Assembly (NCBI GenBank): GCA_003222535.1 | Contig: QHWJ01000328.1 | Span: forward strand, 1 to 62,217 | DNA: 62,217 bases | Source: Acidobacteriota bacterium | GTDB lineage: Bacteria > Acidobacteriota > Vicinamibacteria > Vicinamibacterales > CAVVIG01 | Direction: 5' to 3' | Shown here: piece after piece, positions 9,653 through 57,565 of the stretch | Position numbering within the stretch: position 1 is the first letter of the stretch | Layout: each line of letters starts with the position of its first letter | The notes under the pieces: generated by a model | Seen by the model: only the letters and a program-made list of their open reading frames with translations | The model's database searches: none | What the model was told of the DNA's origin: nothing | Position numbers and translations under genes: made by a program

Positions 9653-10037
9653 TCTGATCCAACCACGAAAGCACGAAGACTCGAAGACGCACGAAGAAGA
9701 AAACACCACCGAGACGCAGAGACACAGAGCAGAACAAACAGAGCGTGCGACCGGCCCGCGCAGCGGGCCGCGAAACGACAGACGCGGTGCAAACACAAAC
9801 GTGTGAGCTCTTTCGTTTGCGTTTGCGCCGCGTTTGTCGTTTCGGGCAGGCCGGCTCCGCCGGCCGCCGGTCGCACGCGCGTCTCTGCGGACTCTGCGCG
9901 CTCCGCGGTTAAACCGTGATCACGATTGCAGCGTGACAGACTCCGTGACTCCGTGTCTCTCTGTGGTTTAACTTCAACCCGTGGGTCCGATGCAGCGTGA
10001 CCGCGTCTGTCGCGAGGCGGGTCCGAGAAGACGCACC
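9653..10037. repeat. Composite repeat gap between convergent genes (CCACGAA arms around a cloverleaf)
   Basis: This 385-base gap between the convergent DedA and acyl-CoA ligase genes holds no gene. From 9661 it begins with a degenerate ACCACGAAAGCACGAAG / CGCAGAGACACAGAG tract. The mirror-image tract (CTCCGTGTCTCTCTGTGG and CTCTGCGGACTCTGCGC) lies at about 9881-9972. Between them, at 9743-9878, is a cloverleaf-shaped inverted repeat listed separately. The gap probably also ends transcription from both sides. Confidence 0.75.
9743..9878. other. Cloverleaf-forming structured element (long form)
   Basis: Read by eye it folds completely. Closing stem P1 9743-9751 pairs with 9870-9878. Side hairpin P2 9752-9759 pairs with 9763-9770 (loop GCA). 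Central stem P3 9771-9794 pairs with 9821-9844: 24 pairs whose only two non-Watson-Crick positions are G.U-compatible. P3 is capped by a further 6-bp stem, 9796-9801 with 9814-9819. Side hairpin P4 9849-9855 pairs with 9859-9865 (loop TCC). Wobble-only exceptions suggest selection at the RNA level. The same layout recurs at 57364-57505 with different sequence. It could be a structured RNA, a bidirectional terminator or a REP-like element. Confidence 0.7.
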
Positions 10038-27336: not shown

Positions 27337-27351
27337 GCACAACAAATGCAA

Positions 27352-27397
27352 CCACGAAAACACGAAGGCCCACGAAGAAGATTTCGTGTTTTCGTGG
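27352..27397. terminator. Perfect inverted repeat between convergent genes (CCACGAA family)
   Basis: CCACGAAAACACGAA (27352-27366) pairs exactly with TTCGTGTTTTCGTGG (27383-27397) around a 16-base loop. It sits between the SUMF1-fusion gene (+) and the acetyltransferase (-), where a bidirectional terminator is expected. There is no U-tract, so ordinary intrinsic termination is uncertain. The same family occurs at 9661, 43765, 57224 and 58848. Confidence 0.55.
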
Positions 27398-27454
27398 TCC
27401 CAGCCCGGTTCTACCGTTGTGCGCCGAACGCAGTCGACATGTTTACCCTGGACA

Positions 27455-57204: not shown

Positions 57205-57565
57205 CGTCGATCTTCTCCAGATCACGAAAAACTCACCACGAAGACACGAAGATCCGCGAAGGCCACGAAAAGACAGTGCGTCGCCACGAAACACCACGGA
57301 GACTGCACCTCAGAGACAGGCGTACTAAGGATCAGGATGCAGCTTCGCTGAAGCGCGCGGAACGGATTCGGCGCGACGGCCTGCTATGCAGGCCGACGCG
57401 CACGGCCGGATCGGACGCGAGATACGAACCGGTGAGAAATCGGGTCCGGCTCGTATCTCGGTCCGATCCTGGCCGTGCCGCCGCTTCGCGGCGCCCGCCG
57501 AATCCCACTCCGGCGCGCTCTTCTTCGTGTGCTTCGTGCATCTTGGTGCTTTCGTGGTTGCCTTT
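57205..57565. repeat. Composite repeat gap with CCACGAA arms and a long cloverleaf
   Basis: 361 bases between the convergent permease and amidohydrolase genes. CCACGAAGACACGAAG units at about 57224-57305 have their reverse complement (CTTCGTGTGCTTCGTGC, GCTTTCGTGGTTGCC) at about 57522-57575. The cloverleaf at 57364-57505 lies between. A REP-like hairpin (GCTTCGCTGAAGCG) is near 57341-57356. No gene. Confidence 0.8.
57364..57505. other. Cloverleaf-forming structured element (long form), second copy
   Basis: Closing stem GGATTCGGCG (57364-57373) with CGCCGAATCC (57496-57505); side hairpin GGCCTGC-TAT-GCAGGCC (57378-57394); central stem of about 30 imperfect pairs (57401-57430 with 57448-57477); side hairpin CGCCGC-TTC-GCGGCG (57479-57493). 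Same order and loop size as 9743-9878, with unrelated sequence. Confidence 0.68.

Follow-up and report, generated by a model that had tools for sequence, protein, structure and literature searches.

What kind of element is the cloverleaf at positions 9743–9878 of the window (the whole stretch of 62,217 nt analysed here): a structured RNA, a by-product of the way palindromes replicate, or a piece of DNA that moves? An earlier note, made from the sequence alone, had described it as a fully paired fold between convergent genes, with wobble-only exceptions suggestive of selection at the RNA level. In our main reading, to which we give a probability of roughly one half, the cloverleaf belongs to a dispersed palindromic DNA element, probably mobile, which would act as a folded strand and have proteins of the GxxExxY family as its nuclease partner.

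Fold of the cloverleaf core

Folding reproduced the plan proposed in the earlier note, i.e. a closing stem, two arms with triloops and a central stem of 24 pairs, and confirmed the fold, which lies well beyond what chance would give. In RNA folding, the + strand of 9743–9878 reached a minimum free energy of –107.7 kcal/mol compared to –63.3 ± 3.9 kcal/mol for shuffled sequences (z = –11.4; 0 of 200 shuffles equalled it), the – strand likewise exceeded its shuffled controls (z = –10.7), and the same segment folded as DNA gave a z-score of –9.9. In the predicted structure, a 10-bp closing stem (9743–9752, pairing with 9869–9878) encloses a short arm (9753–9769; 7-bp stem with a GCA loop at 9760–9762), the central stem (9771–9844) and a second, long arm (9845–9868; TCC loop at 9856–9858). 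The two sides of the central stem (9771–9801 and 9814–9844) are 90% complementary and separated by 12 nt; 24 pairs are followed by one mismatch and then six further pairs, and the tip reads CAAACG/CGTTTG. The two exceptions within the stem, described before as G.U-compatible, do form G.U pairs on the + strand, but are unpaired on the – strand.

A second core in the window (57364–57505), supported by folding both as RNA and as DNA, follows the same plan with a central stem of different sequence (z = –9.9 and –12.3 as RNA, –9.9 as DNA). No Rfam family reached its gathering score anywhere in the 62,217-nt window, in agreement with the previous remark that no named family is known to have this plan.

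Copies, arrays and ends of the repeat unit

A BLAST search of the source genome (8.06 Mb in 450 contigs) revealed two main families, A (the 9743 type) and B (the 57364 type). At least 33 full copies were present, each counted as a distinct place: 21 of type A or A-like, ten of type B, one of a third type (the second copy on contig C321) and one on C393. Model R1, built from family A, recovered all ten B copies (E = 1.5e-8 to 4.6e-5), indicating that the two families share a structure. A first sequence-blind scanner, which looks for a closing stem around two triloop arms with a long central stem between them, returned 31 matches with a score of ≥30 in 994 kb of fetched loci, equivalent to 25 distinct places since six matches fall in two overlapping loci; dinucleotide shuffles yielded none at this score and two lower matches (26.5 and 21). 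The contigs of three loci (L048, L068 and L020) stop at most some 25 bases away from a cloverleaf, which probably reflects assembly breaks at the repeat, so that copy numbers are likely underestimates. Two further sites, on C313 (L024:9935–9987) and C339 (L055 near 9860–9920), retain the closing stem and arms, with the central stem gone.

The extent of 9743–9878 given in the earlier note holds for the cloverleaf core, whereas the element as a whole reaches from about 9661 to 9971. This dispersed unit (ends set by eye; the automatic end finder failed on this copy) starts with a phased array on the + strand (9661–9742; AACCACGAA..., with CACGAAG followed by CAGAG repeats), continues through the core and closes with arrays on the – strand (9879–9971; CTCTGCG, then CTCCGTG/CTGTGG, ending in ...GTGGTTTAA). 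The second unit, of family B, spans 324 bp (57235–57558; ACCACGAAG...TTTCGTGGT). More generally, the cloverleaf sits within a unit of ~260–320 bp bounded by inverted CACGAAG arrays, with lengths of 257–324 bp in the 9 of 14 copies whose ends were found automatically. Fifteen close paralogues from five groups could be aligned from ACCACGAAG or nearby, via arrays and core, to CTTCGTGGT; homology stops sharply at the outer array ends, and the flanks are unrelated. That the element is a dispersed repeat with defined ends is well supported. Where ends had been identified (9 of 14 copies), no target-site duplication was found (mean of 1.6 compared to 1.6 in shuffled flanks).

Arrays also occur by themselves. 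At 27350–27399, the window has a hairpin made of array sequence alone (AACCACGAAAACACGAAGG...TTTTCGTGGTC), with no cloverleaf, and array clusters lacking a cloverleaf are present in many fetched loci. In the literature covered, the sole match to the array motif came from unrelated fish eDNA work.

Conservation of the fold

Compensatory changes among homologues, which the earlier note had proposed as a check, were found in both families. With relatedness of the copies inflating such counts, two-sided changes affected 22 of 49 pairs in family A (22 copies) and 14 of 53 pairs in family B (nine copies); slid controls nevertheless fell to 30–44% paired. For family A, 91.5% of cells were paired compared to 85.1% in shuffled and 35–44% in slid alignments, and 14 of the 15 pairs in the outer central helix had changed on both sides. 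The corresponding values for family B were 95.5% paired and 89.9% shuffled. Two of the 24 type-A copies (C80 and C148) had trimmed ends and were therefore omitted from the family-A alignment (A1).

The geometry, too, is nearly constant. A further sequence-blind scan made 18 matches in 228 kb of GxxExxY loci from the same order and another 21 across 763 kb of loci from the source genome (mostly chosen for their copies), with none in shuffles of either set, and the 37 matches with a score of ≥36 span 129–151 nt with a median of 140. In 753 kb from 80 unrelated loci, no match reached 36, and three weak ones scored 34–35. As read by eye, triloops vary freely in family A, the short-arm loop is nearly constant in family B, and ACAARC/GYTTGT, or a sequence close to it, is preserved at the tip of the central stem. 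Displayed folds from distant families of the order are almost fully paired despite differing sequence, with the exception of L194, which folds partly otherwise. When four methylase–GxxExxY modules (see below) were compared from the tip outward, 14–24 of 28 pairs had changed on both sides and none on one side only, in a register that may slip because unpaired positions were dropped; we therefore do not count this comparison among the main evidence. Conservation of the fold, with sequence turning over while pairing stays, is well supported.

Near-perfect pairing with free sequence turnover would also be the outcome if no selection acted on structure at all, but template switching at replication kept correcting one arm of the palindrome against the other while ordinary duplication spread the copies. 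The two sites without a central stem (C313 and C339) would suit such a process. We nonetheless regard it as highly improbable, since arm number, triloops and total span hardly change from family to family within the order and the central tip motif is preserved (by eye), and since arm correction leaves the association with GxxExxY genes described below unexplained.

Fold at the DNA or RNA level

Selection at the RNA level, as previously suggested from the wobbles, did not hold up once more copies were considered. Mismatches in the central stems of 37 copies (simple alignment) comprised 52 G.U, 41 A.C and 81 other combinations (G.U vs. A.C, binomial p = 0.30), and the wobble pattern of the 9743–9878 copy is unrepresentative. 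Read in the sense of the adjoining GxxExxY gene (18 loci with 24 cloverleafs; L236, found later, omitted), single mismatches amounted to 14 G.U, 28 A.C and 14 other (G.U vs. A.C, p = 0.04); this strand folded the better of the two in 9 of 24 cases. Wobble-tolerant, strand-biased conservation, the mark of structured cis-RNAs, was hence not seen in either the 37 copies or the 24 gene-adjacent cloverleafs. This lack of strand bias, or reversal of it, speaks against selection acting on a sense transcript and is consistent with a DNA fold; on these grounds, an RNA regulatory element was rejected as first choice.

A location between convergent genes applies to both sites in the window, where the 9743 copy lies between genes for a VTT-domain protein and an AMP-binding ligase and the 57364 copy between those for MacB-FtsX and an amidohydrolase, but not as a general rule. 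Among 26 own-genome copies, 17 are found between co-oriented, four between convergent and two between divergent genes, while three overlap an ORF call; the background pairs comprise 192 co-oriented, 44 convergent and 49 divergent ones (rough gene calls). A terminator of convergent genes was accordingly discarded as a general explanation in this genome, although in other genomes, of the 13 copies (19 examined) flanked by ORF calls on either side, 8 do lie between convergent ORFs (rough calls). The latter figure, together with the very stable RNA fold and the frequent placement after stop codons, would suit a transcribed 3′ structure, be it a terminator, a stabiliser or a regulatory RNA. Given mismatches without strand bias in the 37 copies and with the opposite bias on gene-sense strands, own-genome sites that are mostly co-oriented, and no match in Rfam, we deem this explanation improbable.

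Distribution across the Acidobacteriota

With model R1, 23 of the 149 genomes drawn from the order proved to contain cloverleafs, as did 5 of 396 drawn from the phylum, all five belonging to the same order; the phylum draw was the less sensitive one, with at most eight candidates per genome scored outside strict filters. Among the genomes behind named loci, 5 of 38 were positive with R1 (titled Acidobacteria or Terriglobia), four of which share match coordinates with genomes of the order draw and so are not new. As judged by one protein of the window, the nearest relatives are Acidobacteriota metagenome genomes. A similar element was not found described in the literature covered, which excluded subscription papers and preprints.

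GxxExxY genes are widespread. PF13366 gave 118 matches in 55 of the 149 genomes of the order (E = 1e-10), and GxxExxY was present in 106 of 297 genomes drawn from the phylum (E = 1e-15). Genomes with cloverleafs carried PF13366 in 18 of 23 cases compared to 37 of 126 others (Fisher p = 2e-5, with size and lineage uncontrolled). One genome, G062 (L227–L231), is without a PF13366 match at E = 1e-10 despite several cloverleafs; it may use another partner, or the gene may since have been lost.

Association with GxxExxY nuclease genes

In several genomes, the flank of a cloverleaf encodes the C-terminus of a GxxExxY protein. Of 89 GxxExxY loci of the order, fetched by PF13366 match rank and not by cloverleaf (though L232 and L240 were already known to be positive), 15 carry cloverleafs, 14 of them found by R1 and one (L236) added by the scanner. 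Inclusion of four loci fetched earlier for their cloverleaf (L201, L221, L224 and L226) and of six own-genome genes brings this to 19 of 99, with 19 of the 118 PF13366 matches left out. None of the six own-genome genes has an adjacent cloverleaf (a contig end cuts the flank of some), and the misses at L265, L287, L304 and L218, which have little or no downstream sequence, are uninformative. The cloverleaf begins 1–45 nt past the stop codon in 13 of the 19 positive loci, about 87 nt past it in L249 and about 140 nt in L236, and in L253 and L224 it overlaps the last part of the reading frame; at L309 and L260, the upstream cloverleaf alone was detected. Downstream of the L260 stop codon, a strongly folding stretch resembles a second, degenerate cloverleaf, which was called by neither R1 nor the scanner and is not counted here. 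At four loci (L217, L221, L223 and L201), the GxxExxY open frame extends back into the array, the repeats of which read as HRDTE-like peptides (by eye).

Seven of the 99 loci are bracketed by two cloverleafs (L282, L237, L298, L310, L306, L249 and L236), 12 have one detected cloverleaf and 80 have none. Members of a bracketing pair resemble each other, with identities of 0.96 (L282), 0.85 (L237), 0.82 (L298), 0.74 (L310), 0.65 (L306) and 0.99 (L249) compared to a between-element mean of 0.585 and a 95th percentile of 0.647, which places the L306 pair at the edge (18 loci and 24 cloverleafs, without L236). In L184, two cloverleafs (29–169 and 1501–1638) bracket a gene other than GxxExxY, which means that bracketing by itself does not prove cargo.

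As a control, the genes of 23S rRNA intervening sequences (S23), which also form a small multicopy family of these genomes, had a cloverleaf at 0 of 34 loci (p = 0.005) and were dismissed as a partner; GxxExxY loci of other orders likewise had none (0 of 30; p = 0.009). An array lies within 400 nt at 11 of the 15 GxxExxY loci with a cloverleaf, at 31 of the 74 without, and at 259 of 2000 random own-genome stretches, but at none of the 24 S23 loci whose flanks were complete. Because S23 loci lack arrays, this control is weaker than it looks and does not separate the gene from the array.

All 24 aligned GxxExxY proteins match TIGR04256, and Cas4 models were matched weakly; no relative was found in the PDB up to E = 10, nor was a role for the family described in the literature covered (again exclusive of subscription papers and preprints). 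On a GxxExxY tree, from which 3 of the 99 proteins (<95 aa) were excluded, the cloverleaf label is weakly clustered (14 changes compared to a shuffled mean of 16.7, with 15 of 500 shuffles as low), and a correlation of distances was weak, too (rho = 0.24, p = 0.012, n = 18), both tests using the same 18 loci and 24 cloverleafs without L236.

A clade with a common cloverleaf type and an occupied site

The GxxExxY gene on contig C76 of the source genome belongs to a clade of six (support 92), four members of which have cloverleafs. These score best with R1 among all GxxExxY-linked cloverleafs (103.5, 97.5, 94.8 and 88.3 bits); the 14 others range from 40.9 to 72.6 bits, and that of L236 is unreported at the cut-off. 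The four high scorers come from the window's family of genomes, as do two low ones (L237 and L310). In L221 and L217, the clade's gene follows an Eco57I/DrmMI-like methylase gene, and the four remaining members have upstream DNA homologous to that of L217. This methylase–GxxExxY pair (L217:1445–5244; L221:1208–5155), accompanied by a cloverleaf in some genera, is possibly a defence module.

Within genus g25, L221 has a cloverleaf and L286 has none detected. Their downstream DNA is 88% identical, with the matching part offset in L221 by about 147 nt in the downstream direction, and the upstream DNA of each is homologous to that of L217 from the source genome, which likewise lacks a cloverleaf. 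These alignments show one site that carries the element in one species and is vacant in a second species of that genus, in line with gain or loss alike.

These data also bear on who the partner is. Possibly, an unrelated host or phage factor mobilises the cloverleaf as an independent palindromic element, the arrays being its preferred target and GxxExxY genes being met by shared choice. Cloverleafs and many GxxExxY genes do adjoin the same kind of array (42 of 89 loci, within 400 nt); S23 genes without cloverleafs are also without arrays (0 of 24), so that this control is not contrary; the cloverleaf label is scattered on the GxxExxY tree; and G062 has cloverleafs without PF13366, while the own-genome copies are not at GxxExxY genes. 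We still consider such a shared target rather unlikely, in view of the sequence resemblance between bracketing pairs, of the way in which, for the family-A model, cloverleaf type tracks GxxExxY clade, and of the 4 of 15 cloverleaf-bearing GxxExxY loci with no detected array within 400 nt. Against a partnership with the nuclease speaks that about four in five examined GxxExxY genes have no detected cloverleaf.

A possible mechanism and known systems

If the cloverleaf is a mobile DNA element with GxxExxY as its partner, a single-stranded state, at a replication fork or as a cruciform, would let the strand form a four-way junction from the closing stem, the two GC-rich triloop arms and the long central stem. 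GxxExxY, a small PD-(D/E)XK nuclease distantly like Cas4, would recognise this branched shape along with the ACAARC/GYTTGT tip and would cut near the junction, upon which the element or the bracketed gene could be copied or moved. Elements bearing the gene would then be autonomous, and units of array and cloverleaf, such as those in the window, non-autonomous and moved in trans. We entertain more tentatively the full picture of GxxExxY-driven mobile elements, in which each gene moves in company with a cloverleaf subtype of its own, and copies made up of array and cloverleaf are spread in trans. The occurrence of the fold beside or on both sides of some nuclease genes hints at a new type of mobile element recognised by structure.

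Several known systems share parts of this scheme. As presented in the portions of PMC2817692 and PMC3733652 that we draw on, REP/RAYT systems likewise consist of dispersed palindromes with complementary changes and occupy sites mostly between co-oriented and convergent genes; their gene is placed between two cognate palindromes, an arrangement seen here at 7 of 99 GxxExxY loci, and REP palindromes additionally bear a GTAG or CGTC tag. REPs are hairpins of 20–40 bp, a size range well exceeded here by a four-helix core of 129–151 nt (about 140), and RAYTs are tyrosine (Y1, HUH) transposases, whereas the bracketed genes here match PF13366/TIGR04256 of the PD-(D/E)XK class. RAYTs are said to be always flanked, whereas a minority of GxxExxY genes is bracketed; bracketing in both direct and inverted order (by eye) and the outer CACGAAG arrays also set the present element apart. 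PF01797 had one match in the source genome, at a locus with neither array nor cloverleaf, and a RAYT was therefore rejected as partner. On the best reading, its mode of action would resemble that of REP/RAYT, with a branched fold in place of the hairpin and a Cas4-like nuclease in place of the transposase.

MITEs are small, have inverted ends and usually generate a target-site duplication. The present element has terminal inverted repeats and dispersed copies as well and, going by the part of PMC10969869 consulted, is also akin to MITEs in being small, non-coding, multicopy and presumably moved in trans by another element. Unlike them, it has a conserved branched core and showed no target-site duplication (9 of 14 copies with ends). 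MITEs share their ends with an autonomous element; the GxxExxY elements share the cloverleaf and often the arrays, yet GxxExxY is no known transposase.

Integron attC sites act as folded single strands, and their structure is kept more than their sequence. The ends of IS608 (IS200/IS605) act as folded single strands, too, according to the section of PMC6006769 used. Both are like the cloverleaf proposal in folded-strand action, while fold and enzyme class differ. A Cas4 cuts 2–3 nt from branch points, as stated in the excerpt of PMC12538437; GxxExxY resembles Cas4 profiles weakly, and this similarity is remote.

Implications

GxxExxY genes are common in Acidobacteriota, and a matching DNA substrate would make their function testable. 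If the proposed partnership is true, it would give this widespread, uncharacterised family a function, and a nuclease class without known transposase chemistry would join the systems that spread palindromic repeats. The cloverleaf would then also be a case of DNA whose shape is retained while most of its sequence changes.
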